A stretch of DNA of 64,000 nt, from NCBI GenBank assembly GCA_017398765.1, contig JAFQEY010000093.1, positions 1 to 64,000 on the forward strand, in the 5' to 3' direction. This stretch comes from Akkermansia sp. (GTDB lineage: Bacteria > Verrucomicrobiota > Verrucomicrobiia > Verrucomicrobiales > Akkermansiaceae). The notes under the pieces were generated by a model. The model saw only the letters and a program-made list of their open reading frames with translations, ran no database searches and was not told the origin of the DNA. Shown here one piece after another: positions 54,145 through 63,614 of this stretch; the first letter of the stretch is position 1; every line of letters starts with the position of its first letter. A program made the translations under genes and the position numbers.

Positions 54145-54984
54145 TTATGAGCCCTGCTCCGCCAATGCGGGGTATCCTGCCAGCTCCAATATCAATATCT
54201 CCGGGCGGCAGTTGAAGCGCAACGGCAGCTGACTGGTGCCCAATCCCCGGCTGACATAGAATGGTTTCCCCTGCTCTTCATGATAACCGGCGGATTTTTT
54301 ACGGTTCACCTCCCTGTCCGGCATGACGATAGCACCGTAGAACGGCAAGCGTATTTGTCCGCCGTGAGAGTGCCCTGCCAGTGTAATGCTGGTGCCGCGC
54401 GGGGCATACTTCACCCCGGCAGGAGAATGGGTCAGCAAGATAAACGGCTTCCCCGTGTCCGGTTGTGAAACGGAACCGGGATAACGGTACGTGTAGGCAC
54501 AACGCATGCCGGCTATGGTGATGGGGGCACCCCCAACTGTAATTTCCTGTTTCTTGCCCTCCATGAGCGGTATCTTCAAACGCCGGAACATGGCCCGCAA
54601 ATCACGAATACCATAACAATAATCATGATTCCCCAGTACCGCAAAACAGGGTACCGCCGTGAGCGGGCGCAGTTGCTCCTCCATTTTTTCTAAAGACAAG
54701 GTATCTGACTGATCCCAATTCACATAATCCCCCAGCAACAACACGGCATCCGGCTTCTGCTGCATTGTCCGCTCCACGATGCGGCGCAGGTAATCCTCAT
54801 CATCCGGGTGCACGTGCAAATCACTCAACACTGCCAGGCGGGCTCCCCTGCCCTGCCACTTCGGCAGATTCAACCGGTGGTGTGTGACCTCTATCCATTC
54901 CCTTTCCACGAAAACCGCATATAACAACGCCGCTACCGCACTCAGCAGAATAAATATAATCACATACCATCTCCGGTATCTCAT
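54145..54984 (-). CDS. Membrane-anchored metallophosphoesterase (YaeI/YkuE-like)
   Basis: A 279-residue calcineurin-like phosphoesterase with one N-terminal transmembrane helix (about residues 7-25). Metal-ligand motifs are in order: SDLHVHPDD, GDYVNWD, GNHDYCYG, LLTHSP and GHSHGGQ. Related enzymes cleave phosphodiesters including UDP-diacylglucosamine in lipid A synthesis (LpxG/YaeI types); the substrate here is not established. It overlaps ribD by 4 nt. Confidence 0.88.
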   Translation of the reverse strand: MRYRRWYVIIFILLSAVAALLYAVFVEREWIEVTHHRLNLPKWQGRGARLAVLSDLHVHPDDEDYLRRIVERTMQQKPDAVLLLGDYVNWDQSDTLSLEKMEEQLRPLTAVPCFAVLGNHDYCYGIRDLRAMFRRLKIPLMEGKKQEITVGGAPITIAGMRCAYTYRYPGSVSQPDTGKPFILLTHSPAGVKYAPRGTSITLAGHSHGGQIRLPFYGAIVMPDREVNRKKSAGYHEEQGKPFYVSRGLGTSQLPLRFNCRPEILILELAGYPALAEQGS

Positions 54985-56027
54985 TCCAGTATTCCTCTTA
55001 AGATTATGTCAGGTTCACACGCCAGAATCTCCTCCTCCCGGAACTTGCACTCGCGTTTCAGATAGTCTCCCGGCACCATTGGTGCAGGACCACCACCCAG
55101 TATAGGTGCAATGTCCTGCACCCATTCATTCACGAGTCCTTCTTCCAGAAAATGCCGCAACAGCCTGCCGCCGCATTCCAGCAGAAGATTCACGATGCCG
55201 TACTTGCTGTATAGCTCCCCCAGCATCTCCCGAAAATCAGACACATTCTCCAGTATAATCGTTCGATCTGCATACTCATCTGTCAGCAGTTGACAGTCGC
55301 GGGGGATACTGTTGCGGTCACGAGTCATCACAATGCGGTACGGCTGTTTCTTGCGGGGAGACGGTGCCTGCAGCGGCGTGCGAATCGTCAGTGCCGGGTC
55401 ATCTATGCGTACTGTACCGCCGCCCACTAATATGGCATCACTCTCCGCGCGCAGTTGGTGTGCATTGCGCAGTGCCTTTGGGCTGGACAGCCAGCGGTCA
55501 TCGCGGCGCGTCATGCGCCCATCCATCGTGGTAGCCACCTTTGCCAGTACCCAGGGGCTGCGATGTTTGACAGACCATACCCAGGGCCGCACCAGGATTT
55601 CACATACCTCTCCGCACACGCCATGCACTACTTCTATACCGTGGGCGCGTAATATCTCATCTGCACGCCCACGGTGGCGATCATCGGGGTCTACCGCACC
55701 GTAAATGACTTTGCTGATACCGGCCTCTATAATGGCTTCCGTGCAAGGTGGCGTGCGCCCATAGCTCGAACAAGGCTCAAGTGTCACATAAAGTGTAGAG
55801 CCCTTCAGCCATTGTCCGTTACCTTTCCATTTGGCATTTTCTATGGCTCGGCGTTCAGCATGCTGTTCTCCCGCTATCTCGTGATAACCTTCCCCCAGTA
55901 TAAAACCATCCCGCACAATAACCGCCCCTACGGGCGGATTAGGGCTGGTGGTACCCACACCACGGCGAGCCAGATCTACGGCTCGCATCATCCAAAGATA
56001 ATCCTGATTGGGAGATAAATCGTCCAT
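54981..56027 (-). CDS. ribD: Bifunctional riboflavin biosynthesis deaminase/reductase
   Basis: A 348-residue enzyme for the second and third steps of riboflavin synthesis from GTP. The N-terminal deaminase domain binds zinc through HAE (His56) and the PCSSYGRTPPC pair (Cys86 and Cys95). The C-terminal reductase domain (about 150-345) holds VATTMDGRM and ILVGGGTVRIDDP. Length is normal. Its promoter leaves about 6 nt before the ATG, so the mRNA looks leaderless. It lies immediately left of the candidate replication origin and is coupled to the phosphoesterase gene. Confidence 0.95.
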   Translation of the reverse strand: MDDLSPNQDYLWMMRAVDLARRGVGTTSPNPPVGAVIVRDGFILGEGYHEIAGEQHAERRAIENAKWKGNGQWLKGSTLYVTLEPCSSYGRTPPCTEAIIEAGISKVIYGAVDPDDRHRGRADEILRAHGIEVVHGVCGEVCEILVRPWVWSVKHRSPWVLAKVATTMDGRMTRRDDRWLSSPKALRNAHQLRAESDAILVGGGTVRIDDPALTIRTPLQAPSPRKKQPYRIVMTRDRNSIPRDCQLLTDEYADRTIILENVSDFREMLGELYSKYGIVNLLLECGGRLLRHFLEEGLVNEWVQDIAPILGGGPAPMVPGDYLKRECKFREEEILACEPDIILRGILE

Positions 56028-56033
56028 GAGCTC

Positions 56034-56061
56034 ATTCTATCATCTTGTTTCGCTATGTCAA
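56034..56061 (-). promoter_or_regulatory. Promoter of ribD (leaderless)
   Basis: On the minus strand, TTGACA (56056-56061), 16-bp spacer, TAGAAT (56034-56039). Six nt separate the -10 from ATG 56027. No FMN riboswitch is present. Confidence 0.6.
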
Positions 56062-56099
56062 GGTGTGCACGCCTTGCTCAACCCGGCTTCCTTTCTGAT

Positions 56100-56345
56100 G
56101 ACTAATGAAAGATAAAATTTAAATTCATCATCATCAGTTGTGTGAATAAGTTTAATAACTATCCTTATCCCCTTATCAGGAACAATTTATTAAGCTCTAT
56201 ATTTGTTTATAACAAGGTGTATAAATAGCCTCCCCCGTGTGAATAAGAGTTATTCACCGCTTTATTCACGACTTATTCACATACTTATTCACCAAATTTT
56301 GTTAATAAGTAATATAATTTATTTATAATCAATGACTTATATTAG
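56100..56345. other. Candidate chromosomal replication origin (oriC)
   Basis: An intergenic AT-rich block with seven 9-mers like the DnaA box TTATNCACA. Reverse-oriented boxes are at 56141-56149 (TTATTCACA), 56216-56224 (TTATACACC) and 56238-56246 (TTATTCACA). Forward boxes are at 56250-56258 (TTATTCACC), 56262-56270 (TTATTCACG), 56273-56281 (TTATTCACA) and 56285-56293 (TTATTCACC). The forward boxes repeat every 11-12 bp, one helical turn, as in DnaA filament sites. The A/T-only stretch at about 56295-56345 could be the unwinding element. Four parS-like sites lie 0.8-4.3 kb to the right. No dnaA or dnaN gene is adjacent in the window. Confidence 0.7.
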
Positions 56346-57086: not shown

Positions 57087-57102
57087 TGTTCCACATGGAA
57101 CA
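57087..57102. other. parS-like site 1
   Basis: TGTTCCACATGGAACA: perfect 7-bp arms TGTTCCA/TGGAACA around CA. The usual parS has CG at the centre (TGTTNCACGTGNAACA). Confidence 0.65.
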
Positions 57103-57267: not shown

Positions 57268-58677
57268 TTACTTGTCTCTGAAAAGCATGGGCGGCAACAT
57301 ACGCAGCTGGAGTGGATTCTTCAATCCCTGCTCAAGTTTTTCGTTCCATATAGAAGAAGAATCCTTGTACAAAAGAGCACGCGCGTATGCAAGAGACATT
57401 TCTGCGCAATCCAGTGCTCTGCGGTAGCACATAAGATATGTCATGCTTTTCTGAGAAAATTGAGAACGTGAATCGCGAAGCTGCTCATAGTGATGCTCAG
57501 CCTTTTGTAAAACATCAAGTGCTTTTTCTCTGCGCTTGGAATGATGCAGTACCCTGACTTGTAAAACTGATTTCAGGCATTCTCCAAAATGATAAGCTAG
57601 CTGGTCATCAAGAAATGTTTCATGTGGAACATTGCATTGAGAAGCTTTGCGAACTTCTTTTGCTGAGGGAACTTTGCTGCGAAGAATTAAAGCACGCATG
57701 GGTAGAGTCATTACTTCCCAGCGGTACAAGATATCTGCGCGAGCAATGGACTCACGTTTCAGTGTCTGCTTGTAAAGAGTGTTCTCATTTTGCCGTACAG
57801 TACTCAGATATAAATCTGCACGAATAAGTTCGTATGCATCCTCCGGTGGTATAGCGTATGCGTCAAGGTGTTGGGTAAGTACAGAGTGTTCCTCATGGAG
57901 AAGCTTTTCAGCTGTTCCCAAATCATTGCTTCTAAAATGTAGATGAGCTGCCAGATGCAGTGCCATGGGGTGACGTTCCAATTGTTCTGCACTCATCAGC
58001 GAGAGCTTTAAGATATCGGTCGGTATTTCCTGCTTTGATTCATATCCTTGGCAATAAAGAAATGCGCAGAGCGGATGTTTCGGATTCCGTTCGTACAGTT
58101 CCTTTGCCATAGGAATGGCAGATTCCTCATGGGCGGCATGTCTTAAGGCAATGGCCCAGCAGCCTGATAATATATCAGCACGGTAAAGTTTACTCCGCTG
58201 TTCAAAATCAGTTGCTGCTCCTTTGACATCTCCTGAAATCAATTTCAGAAATGTTTCCACGTAGAATATTTCCTGTGGTGTTGCCATGTACTCTGCGCTA
58301 TTGATGATATTGGTCAGCTGCTTCAGCAACTGGGAGTACTCAGCGTGGTTGTGGTATTCGAGCAACATAAGACCACAGAGTGCTAATGCGGCGTTTGGTT
58401 CCTGTTGTAATGCCTGGCGAAATCGCATGCGAGCAAGCGAGTCATAGCCGAGCAGTGTATCCTGCAATCCTAAATTGACAAGACGTGAAACTTCCATGTT
58501 TTCTGTGGCGAGAATAATGGATTCAACGGCTTCTTCATTGCGTTGCAGAGGAAGGGCAGGGGAGTTACATTGATTGTTTTGCCCATAAAGCAGCTCTGCG
58601 CCGCCGGTCATCATGACCGAAGCGACGCAGAGTACAACAAACTTTTGTTCCATGTGGAACAGCCGGTTCGTTTTCAT
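57268..58677 (-). CDS. Secreted TPR-like helical protein
   Basis: A 469-residue protein with an N-terminal signal (hydrophobic FVVLCVASVMMTGGAELLYGQ). The body is helical with TPR-like spacing; one clear unit is LGLQDTLLGYDSLARMRFRQALQQEPNAALA (about 70-100). It may be a periplasmic or outer-membrane scaffold. The gene starts 5 bp after the argS stop, so it is probably co-transcribed with argS. Two parS-like sites lie inside its coding sequence (57616-57631 and 58646-58661). A later start at 58653 would shorten the signal. Confidence 0.72.
   Translation of the reverse strand: MKTNRLFHMEQKFVVLCVASVMMTGGAELLYGQNNQCNSPALPLQRNEEAVESIILATENMEVSRLVNLGLQDTLLGYDSLARMRFRQALQQEPNAALALCGLMLLEYHNHAEYSQLLKQLTNIINSAEYMATPQEIFYVETFLKLISGDVKGAATDFEQRSKLYRADILSGCWAIALRHAAHEESAIPMAKELYERNPKHPLCAFLYCQGYESKQEIPTDILKLSLMSAEQLERHPMALHLAAHLHFRSNDLGTAEKLLHEEHSVLTQHLDAYAIPPEDAYELIRADLYLSTVRQNENTLYKQTLKRESIARADILYRWEVMTLPMRALILRSKVPSAKEVRKASQCNVPHETFLDDQLAYHFGECLKSVLQVRVLHHSKRREKALDVLQKAEHHYEQLRDSRSQFSQKSMTYLMCYRRALDCAEMSLAYARALLYKDSSSIWNEKLEQGLKNPLQLRMLPPMLFRDK
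57616..57631. other. parS-like site 2
   Basis: TGTTTCATGTGGAACA, inside the TPR-like gene. One arm base differs from sites 1, 3 and 4, matching the T found in the common TGTTTCAC form. Confidence 0.55.
58646..58661. other. parS-like site 3
   Basis: TGTTCCATGTGGAACA, the reverse complement of site 1, within the first codons of the TPR-like gene. Confidence 0.65.
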
Positions 58678-60559: not shown

Positions 60560-60575
60560 TGTTCCACATGGAACA
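60560..60575. other. parS-like site 4
   Basis: TGTTCCACATGGAACA, identical to site 1, in the intergenic region between argS and the small RNA. Confidence 0.65.
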
Positions 60576-60896: not shown

Positions 60897-61982
60897 ATGG
60901 GAAACGCACAATATTACTATCTTGATGATTCCAACAGACCCCAGGGACCTTTTACGGTGGAACAGCTGGCGGCATTGATGTTATCCGGCACGGTGACTCA
61001 GGAGACAAAGGTGGCAGCCGCCGGAGACTCTAATTGGAAACCCGTGAGTGAACAAACATGGTTTGAAAATGGACAGGTGAAGAACGGGGCAGGGGAATCA
61101 GTCGGTTTTGCACGCGGTGGAGTGGGGGTGGAGCCCGGGGCTTGTCCCAAATGCGGCAAAGAGCTGACCGGTTGGTCTGTTCCGTTGAAGTGTCCGCACT
61201 GCGGATATCAGCTCCGACCAAACGGAGAAAGTTTCTGGGCAAACATGCTGTATGCCGGGCGGCAGTTGTTCACGCTTCGCGGGCGAGCAACCCGCAAGGA
61301 GTATTGGGCATTTACCGTGGGGATGATTCCCATCTTCTTGCTTTGGCTTTTTCTGTTGGCTGTCGGTTTAGCTATCTTTTTAATGGAATTGGATTTTGAT
61401 TCTGAAAGTGAAATTGAGTTACTGTTCAGCGTGTGGCCAAAGTTCGGCATGCTGATGGTTGTGACTTACGGAATCCTCTGCATTCCCTGTTTTTTTCTGT
61501 TGGGTCGGCGTTTGCATGATTTAGGCAAGTCAGCCTGGTGGTCGGGTCTGATGATGCTCATATCCGTAGCCGGCATGTATATGTGTATACCTGCCATGGA
61601 GGAAATAAGAATGTCCATGGAGAAGCCTCTTCAGGAGATGACATCAGAGTTCATCGAGAACCAGACAGCAGCTGCTGAGGCGGCACAGCGCCTGGCCGCC
61701 GCAGCACGTGAGAAGGGAGATGAAGCACTGGCACGTGAGATAGAAGAAAAAAACATGAAAGATGCTGAACTTGCCGGTGTCAACTTTGAGAAGAAAATAG
61801 ATAATCTCTTTTACAAAGTAGAGCATAATACGACAGCACAGCTTACCACATTCTCAGTGGTGTCCGGGCTGCTTTCGCTGGTGAATTCGCTGTGCAGTAT
61901 CATTATACTGGTGCTGGGGTGCATCGACAGCCGGCGTGGACCTAATAAGTATGGTCCTTCTATCAAGTATCCGCGCGGATAA
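60897..61982 (+). CDS. GYF_2 / zinc-ribbon / DUF805 membrane protein 1
   Basis: A 361-residue inner-membrane protein. A GYF_2 domain (about residues 5-55, YYYLDDSNRPQGPFTVEQL) is followed by a zinc ribbon (CPKCGKEL...CPHCGYQL, about 80-103). The DUF805 membrane domain (from about 115) carries RGRATRKEYWAF and RRLHDLGKSAWWSG. A charged Ala/Glu-rich helical insert (about 230-300) sits before the final membrane segment and the ending CIDSRRGPNKYGPS. DUF805 proteins have no firmly established function. It is the first of four consecutive related genes. Confidence 0.82.
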   Translation: MGNAQYYYLDDSNRPQGPFTVEQLAALMLSGTVTQETKVAAAGDSNWKPVSEQTWFENGQVKNGAGESVGFARGGVGVEPGACPKCGKELTGWSVPLKCPHCGYQLRPNGESFWANMLYAGRQLFTLRGRATRKEYWAFTVGMIPIFLLWLFLLAVGLAIFLMELDFDSESEIELLFSVWPKFGMLMVVTYGILCIPCFFLLGRRLHDLGKSAWWSGLMMLISVAGMYMCIPAMEEIRMSMEKPLQEMTSEFIENQTAAAEAAQRLAAAAREKGDEALAREIEEKNMKDAELAGVNFEKKIDNLFYKVEHNTTAQLTTFSVVSGLLSLVNSLCSIIILVLGCIDSRRGPNKYGPSIKYPRG

Positions 61983-61989
61983 CATTTTC

Positions 61990-62655
61990 ATGCCCGAATC
62001 GCTGCCTCAGACTGATGCTTGTGAAACCCGCTGGTACAGCCCGCGGGGCAGGGCAGGGAGGTGGGAGTTCTGGTGCTGGGCAGTCGGGCTCATTCCCCTC
62101 TGTATAGTGGGTATATTCCTGCTGACAGTGGGCTTGGCATGGCCGGTGCTGTGGTATTGCGGCAGCGGTGCAGGGGCTGCTTCGGCAGTGGCAGGAATCA
62201 TAGCCGGTATCGTGGTCATCATTTCCTTTTTTCCCTTCTTTATGATGCTATGCCGCCGCCTGCGTGATGTGGGGCTGAATCCGCTTCTTGCTGTTCTGGT
62301 ATGGGGTATCCTGACGGTAAGCGGCGGTTTGTGGGTATATGCAGGTTTTGAATTCAGCAGCCGGATTCTTGCAGAAGCACGGCCTGTGGCAGAGAAATAT
62401 GATGCCGCTGTAGCGGCAAGTTATCAGAGCCGGAATACGGCTGGCGGAAAAAGCCTGCGGAATGAGGAAAAGCAGGTGTTGCGTGCGTTGGTATACCGAA
62501 TCTTGCAAGAAGAATTTCAAGATAGAAAGGGCTTGTACATACTGCTGAAAGTTTCTGGCCTGGTGAGTGCTTTGTGCTTATTTTCTCTACCCGTTACAGG
62601 GCTGCTTCCTCCGCGTCGACATGCTTCTGAACTAAACAACCCAACTGAATCATGA
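61990..62655 (+). CDS. DUF805 membrane protein 2 (no GYF or zinc ribbon)
   Basis: A 221-residue paralogue reduced to the DUF805 part: SPRGRAGRWEFW corresponds to RGRATRKEYW and CRRLRDVGLNPLLAV to RRLHDLG. The N-terminal GYF and zinc-ribbon modules are missing, and the C-terminal KYGPS motif has degenerated to PPRRHASE. Start 61990 lies 7 bp after the previous stop; an earlier in-frame ATG at 61936 overlaps that gene. It overlaps the next gene by 4 nt (ATGA). Confidence 0.75.
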   Translation: MPESLPQTDACETRWYSPRGRAGRWEFWCWAVGLIPLCIVGIFLLTVGLAWPVLWYCGSGAGAASAVAGIIAGIVVIISFFPFFMMLCRRLRDVGLNPLLAVLVWGILTVSGGLWVYAGFEFSSRILAEARPVAEKYDAAVAASYQSRNTAGGKSLRNEEKQVLRALVYRILQEEFQDRKGLYILLKVSGLVSALCLFSLPVTGLLPPRRHASELNNPTES

Positions 62656-63614
62656 ACTATTATTATCTGGACAGTAAACGGAACATCTGCGGTCCATACA
62701 GCCGGGAGCAGATGTGTGCCTACCTTCTGAACGGTACCATCACACCGGAGTCACTTTGTGCCGCTGCCGGGGAGCAGAATTGGCGCCCGCTTTCCGAACA
62801 GGAGTGGATGCGTGGCAGTGAAGCAGCGGAGACTCCCAAATCTGTAAATATGGGAAATTGTCCCTACTGCGGAGCGGAGCAGGTGGGTTTTCAGCTCCCC
62901 TCAGCCTGTTCTTCCTGCGGAGCACCACAGGCACCGAAAGATAGTTCCATGTGGAGTTTTTTTTGTCTGGCTCTCAGGCGCCTGTTCTGTTTCAAAGGGC
63001 GTTCCCAGCGCAAGGAATACTGGGCATACGTACTGTTTTCATGTTTATTTATACTGCTGTCAGATGTGCTGATTATCGTGGGAATGTTCGGACATTGGAT
63101 ACAGATGGGTACACTGCTTATCGTTTATAACAGCTTGGTGGGTTTACTGATTTACCCGCTGTTGGTCCGCAGATTACATGATATCGGTCTGAGCGGGAGG
63201 TGGATGATCATACCTTTTGTTTTGTCTCTTATCTCCTGTATCACGACTGTGAATGCAATAATCCATAATACTACTCCCCCTACCGTCACAGCCCTTGTAG
63301 AGGAAGAAAGCGGCACCATGAGCAAAGAGGACTTCAGCAGGAAGTACCCCGGTGTTTTTCTTTCAGAAGGGCAGGGGGAGATACAGTACCGCGTTAGCAA
63401 AGAGAGATACAGCACTTTTGCCGGGTTTAAGCAGATTAAGGAAATAACCGACAGAATAAATTATCCCTTCGGCACATCTCCTGCCATGAAAACGGTAGCC
63501 CAATTGTTCTCCATACTGAATCAGTTGGTGGGTATCCTCATCTTTGTGGCGGCTTGTATCGACAGTCGGCGCGGTGCCAATAAATACGGACCTTCTTCAA
63601 AATATACCTGTTAA
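62652..63614 (+). CDS. GYF_2 / zinc-ribbon / DUF805 membrane protein 3
   Basis: A 320-residue paralogue with all three modules: GYF_2 (MNYYYLDSKRNICGPYSREQM), a CPYCG...CSSCG zinc ribbon (about 74-95) and DUF805 with GRSQRKEYWAY, RRLHDIGLSGRWM and CIDSRRGANKYGPSSK. The insert before the last membrane segment differs from that of protein 1. Translation is coupled to protein 2 by the 4-nt overlap. Confidence 0.82.
   Translation: MNYYYLDSKRNICGPYSREQMCAYLLNGTITPESLCAAAGEQNWRPLSEQEWMRGSEAAETPKSVNMGNCPYCGAEQVGFQLPSACSSCGAPQAPKDSSMWSFFCLALRRLFCFKGRSQRKEYWAYVLFSCLFILLSDVLIIVGMFGHWIQMGTLLIVYNSLVGLLIYPLLVRRLHDIGLSGRWMIIPFVLSLISCITTVNAIIHNTTPPTVTALVEEESGTMSKEDFSRKYPGVFLSEGQGEIQYRVSKERYSTFAGFKQIKEITDRINYPFGTSPAMKTVAQLFSILNQLVGILIFVAACIDSRRGANKYGPSSKYTC

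Follow-up and report, generated by a model that had tools for sequence, protein, structure and literature searches.

Where does replication begin on an Akkermansia chromosome whose array of DnaA-box-like repeats lies apart from dnaA? The question is raised by a 64,000-nucleotide stretch (here, the window) of contig C93 (79,644 bp), which belongs to a 2.16-Mb Akkermansia MAG comprising 102 contigs, with 84% completeness. The initial annotation had proposed a chromosomal origin in this window with neither dnaA nor dnaN beside it, and both genes were found on other contigs: dnaA on C63 (5.6 kb) and dnaN on C89. Adjacency to dnaA, a common but optional feature of origins, was thus not observed. 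We nevertheless place at roughly 94% the probability that this Akkermansia begins chromosome replication in the intergenic region at 56028-56345 (its oriC), a proposal supported by the position of the skew minimum, by linkage to parS, and by the finding of no comparable box cluster elsewhere in the whole assembly.

The array itself spans 153 bp (56141-56293) and consists of seven TTATNCACN 9-mers, three in reverse orientation followed by four in forward orientation. The reverse copies are the leftmost DnaA box at 56141-56149 (TTATTCACA), which adjoins a conserved AT-rich/TCATCATCATCA element and aligns with a reverse box in most Akkermansia species; a DnaA-box-like site at 56216-56224 (TTATACACC); and a second TTATTCACA box at 56238-56246, which forms an inverted pair with the first forward copy, a box-like site at 56250-56258 (TTATTCACC). 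The other forward copies fall at 56262-56270 (box-like, TTATTCACG), 56273-56281 (a DnaA box, TTATTCACA), and 56285-56293 (box-like, TTATTCACC), with start-to-start spacings of 12, 11, and 12 bp among the four. All of the seven box-like 9-mers described earlier (within ~155 bp, three reverse and four forward, 11 to 12 bp apart) were therefore re-found. Two weak boxes, each with one mismatch, were also identified on the reverse strand, at 56204-56212 (TTATAAACA) and 56300-56308 (TTATTAACA); the latter is probably a real site, given that many relatives carry TTATTCACA or TTATCCACA at the same position.

Such a clustering of DnaA boxes is well above chance. The observed maximum of seven TTATNCAC sites per 155 bp compares with two or fewer in 300 dinucleotide shuffles of the whole window, and 5000 shuffles of the 453-bp intergenic stretch alone never yielded more than two. 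Recurrence of the same cluster at many unrelated loci, which had been named as evidence that would speak against an origin, was not seen: the inverted pair GTGNATAA-N0-30-TTATNCAC was unique to this locus across the draft assembly, and direct box pairs no more than 30 bp apart occurred at just two further places, on contigs C31 and C77. The first of these is a second small group (C31:14102; L001:1500-1577, at ~14.1 kb of C31 in assembly G000) of two tandem and one inverted TTATTCACA, located just upstream of a short ORF resembling a winged-helix regulator; it may mark a gene under DnaA control or serve to titrate DnaA. As an origin it was ruled out, having fewer boxes and residing on a contig without parS.

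On the left of the array lies ribD (54981-56027, minus strand; Pfam RibD_C, 1.7e-34, plus a deaminase domain), which is transcribed away from the array, with a promoter recognized by inspection at 56034-56061 on the minus strand (TTGACA, 16 bp, TAGAAT) whose -35/-10-like blocks were seen again in close relatives. By RibD protein, the nearest relatives (83-93% identity) are Akkermansia MAGs recovered from the guts of ruminants and other animals. On the right are genes for a lipoprotein-like protein and a TPR-like protein as well as argS, all on the minus strand. The nearby parS-like cluster previously invoked in favor of an origin proved to comprise four real parS palindromes, at 57087-57102 (TGTTCCACATGGAACA), 57616-57631 (TGTTTCATGTGGAACA), 58646-58661 (TGTTCCATGTGGAACA), and 60560-60575 (TGTTCCACATGGAACA); located 0.8 to 4.3 kb from the array, they have no counterpart elsewhere in the 2.16-Mb assembly, even when one mismatch is tolerated. 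Farther along the window, a tandem group at 60897-63614 encodes two membrane proteins of GYF_2/DUF805-like type and, as its third ORF, another DUF805-like product, and the N-terminal repeats of these DUF805-like proteins resemble one another (both observations by eye). Tandem 9-mers near an AT-rich stretch would also fit the iterons of an integrated plasmid or phage replicon, in which case the array would not belong to the chromosome; yet no replicon gene is apparent next to it, its neighbors being the housekeeping genes ribD, argS, and carB, and the array occupies the same place throughout the genus and varies with the chromosomal DnaA, as described below. We regard an iteron source as extremely improbable.

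The cumulative GC skew of contig C93 reaches its minimum at 56.9 kb, and complete relatives, whose skew was sampled in 20-kb stretches, placed the orthologous arrays at or near chromosomal minima. For G038 (2,650,075 bp in one contig; 60 stretches sampled, ~1.2 Mb), negative skew values run from the first position to ~973 kb and give way to positive ones up to ~2.26 Mb, the sign reverting near 2.26-2.28 Mb, approximately half a chromosome from the minimum. The fine minimum of 973.0 kb coincides with an array at 973098-973205 that is the sole cluster of at least five boxes in the sampled sequence and sits just upstream of the ribD ortholog. Also nearby are dnaN (975.3 kb) and the single parS, at 971191 within mnmG. 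In G063, the fine minimum (1111.5 kb) likewise falls at the array (~1111.3 kb), and in G128 a flat minimum extends from 417.5 kb to ~426 kb, taking in ribD at 425.3 kb, such that the array is within ~8 kb of the minimum; the inverted-pair pattern was absent from G128. The inverted pair GTGNATAA-N-TTATNCAC was found once, beside ribD, in each of the complete chromosomes G028, G038, G063, G082, and G085. The skew check proposed in the initial annotation thus places the minimum on the array exactly in G038 and G063, and close to it on the contig and in G128. Two peculiarities of G038 were recorded as well: its ribD ortholog (L050:11956-12983; 971956-972983) was matched as two adjacent pieces, which suggests a frameshift or a sequencing error beside the origin, and one 20-kb stretch (L080; 2440001-2460000) had a GC skew of -0.42, far beyond all other sampled stretches.

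These chromosomes also bear on whether the true origin might instead be at dnaA, with the array binding DnaA for regulation or titration, in the manner of datA, DARS, or a ribD promoter under DnaA control. DnaA box clusters do act outside origins too, this array is directly upstream of the ribD promoter, and mapping put the origin of the verrucomicrobial Methylacidiphilum infernorum 250 nt upstream of its dnaA gene (PMC2474590). In G038, however, dnaA lies at the start of the record, ~0.97 Mb from the array, in a region of uniformly negative skew with no sign change, the minimum being at the array, and the skew of G063 behaves likewise. Moreover, parS is found at the array and not at dnaA, and the dnaA locus L005 contains no exact TTATNCAC box. 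An origin at dnaA is, on this evidence, very unlikely, and an origin at the array is preferred.

Across the genus, a RibD match was obtained for 75 of 76 genomes, and at least three box matches to a fixed pattern were present in 64 of 70 arrays, as examined in the sequence upstream of the chosen RibD match; by this exact-pattern counting, the other 6 had fewer than three. The geometry is recurrent, with left and right reverse boxes, an inverted center, and forward boxes at intervals of 11 to 12 bp. Throughout Akkermansia, ribD is the gene kept beside the proposed origin. The arrays of five genomes (G002, G088, G079, G143, and G145; loci L134, L101, L241, L130, and L119) are drifting to TTATTAACA, TTATTGACA, or TTATCAACA while their DnaA is still of the DHGT type; weak-box origins or a further change in specificity are possible.

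A comparison of DnaA domain IV across 53 genomes showed GGRDHGT in most of them, and boxes were counted with a pattern allowing C/G at position 6, A/G at position 3, and C/T at position 4, sites altered otherwise being uncounted. A clade of five species (G121, G122, G123, G124, and G127) instead encodes GGRSH (S433), and its arrays carry TTRYTGACA at the places where others have TTATTCACA: position 6 of the box is G in 25/27 sites of these five species versus 29/207 in the 42 DHG species, where it is C in 178/207. Tandem TTRYTGACA pairs were found in 4/5 S433 genomes, beside ribD only, and in none of three controls. A second clade, of four species (G087, G098, G107, and G115), encodes GRDH(S/T)T and has boxes that are mostly TTATCCACA, with C at position 5 in 16/20 sites of these DHS/DHT species versus 20/207 in DHG species; its sister, G105, retains both DHGT and TTATTCACA. 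D433S therefore goes with C6 to G, and G435S/T goes with T5 to C. When the recognition helix was left out of a DnaA tree, the S433 set and the DHS/DHT set each formed one clade, and hence only about two independent events are represented.

This covariation, the strongest of the indirect evidence, argues that the repeats would be read by DnaA itself. It fits with prior work listing D433, T435, and H439 among the base-contacting DnaA residues (PMC7561715). In epsilonproteobacteria, DnaA does not bind a TTATAGACA site (C6 to G), and position 435 has been discussed for box specificity (PMC5043019). We consider it likely that DnaA has undergone a rewiring of its recognition code within Akkermansia: in the first clade by D433 to S (together with G435A/H439N, or H439A in G127) with every origin box going from TTATTCACA to TTRYTGACA, and in the second by G435 to S/T with boxes going to TTATCCACA, the initiator and the origin having changed together while the layout and place of the array stayed as they were. 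Epsilonproteobacterial DnaA and boxes likewise differ jointly, with box position 5 T accompanying altered helix residues such as 435; there the difference is class-wide (PMC5043019), whereas the Akkermansia changes took place within a single genus, D433S paired with C6 to G being among them.

Two AT-rich elements beside the boxes are candidates for unwinding, one on either side. The A/T-only stretch noted initially is present on the right (56310-56329, 20 nt) and falls within the 40-mer of lowest stability in 55-58 kb (56303-56342), an alternative unwinding element. The left candidate is an AT-rich block with TCATCATCATCA at 56112-56136, a possible DNA-unwinding element or trio-like repeat; it is the most widely kept non-box element in the alignment, with CCTTCTTCTTC, TTCATAATAATA, and similar forms in other clades. 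The initial annotation implied that a real origin opens solely at the right-hand stretch, toward which the forward boxes point and which is locally the least stable. Against this, the AT content of the right side is reduced in the G038-like clade (averaging 58%, versus 68% on the left), and it is the left element, with its trinucleotide repeat next to the first box, that can be aligned across clades. Opening limited to the right thus has somewhat less than an even chance; the A/T stretch stands as an observation but not as the sole predicted melting element.

The left repeat has likenesses to the basal unwinding system of Bacillus subtilis with its DnaA-trios (PMC8287927), in that it has 3 to 4 trinucleotide units no more than 16 bp from a box and beside AT-rich DNA. 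It is unlike that system in that the A-centered repeat shared by all clades lies on the box strand, whereas the published trio strand is the 5'-tail strand, on which only some Akkermansia clades have A-centered triplets. By eye, and against a threshold of three or more NAN trios on the 5'-tail strand no farther than 16 bp from a box, the 5'-tail strand of the window reads 3'-GAC TAC TAC TAC-5' at this repeat, while that of the G038 clade is without NAN trios, its opposite strand reading GAA GAA GAA GAT. We accordingly do not claim a clean trio element of the B. subtilis type, because the strand polarity fails in some clades.

The boxes, their uniqueness, the position of the skew minimum in relatives, the parS linkage, the conservation next to ribD, and the DnaA-box covariation were computed here; for binding and opening, we infer the steps from the families involved. 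DnaA, made from its distant gene, would bind the inverted and tandem boxes via domain IV and form an oligomer on the array, which the helical phasing of the forward boxes fits. The oligomer would then melt a flanking AT-rich element, on the left or the right, and helicase would presumably be loaded there in both directions. ParB bound to the four parS sites, 0.8 to 4.3 kb to one side, may separate the new origins.

For Akkermansia, a much-studied gut genus, no fewer than three complete chromosome records have dnaA as their starting point, which on this evidence is about one-third of a chromosome from the origin. The ribD locus should therefore serve as the reference for coverage-based estimates of growth rate, for origin plasmids, and for genome rotation. 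The two lineages in which the reading helix of DnaA and the boxes changed jointly offer a natural experiment on how initiator and origin can change specificity while replication is maintained. In the literature searched, we found no description of the element itself, its genus-wide linkage to ribD, or the DnaA-box switching, although a DoriC prediction may exist.

Origins distant from dnaA are known. A rough position has already been published for cultured Akkermansia muciniphila, in the one relevant study met in the literature searched for an Akkermansia oriC sequence: the origins of twelve mouse gut strains, including A. muciniphila YL44, were placed by parS, skew, and coverage, with a coverage peak reported in general terms at the origins so defined, and the origin did not systematically coincide with dnaA, making this gene an unreliable marker (PMC10197239). 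The same logic and the same genus are involved here; in the part of that work considered, the position is given at kilobase scale for another species, with no mention of a box array, a link to ribD, or any sequence element. With the box/DUE type of oriC in Escherichia coli and B. subtilis, the Akkermansia locus shares an intergenic box cluster, an AT-rich flank, a skew minimum, and nearby parS; in relatives, dnaN is ~2-2.5 kb away (G038 and G063) and mnmG (gidA) ~1.6 kb away (G038). It differs from them in that dnaA is unlinked and ribD is the marker gene, and in that the clade of the window has dnaN elsewhere as well (contig C89).
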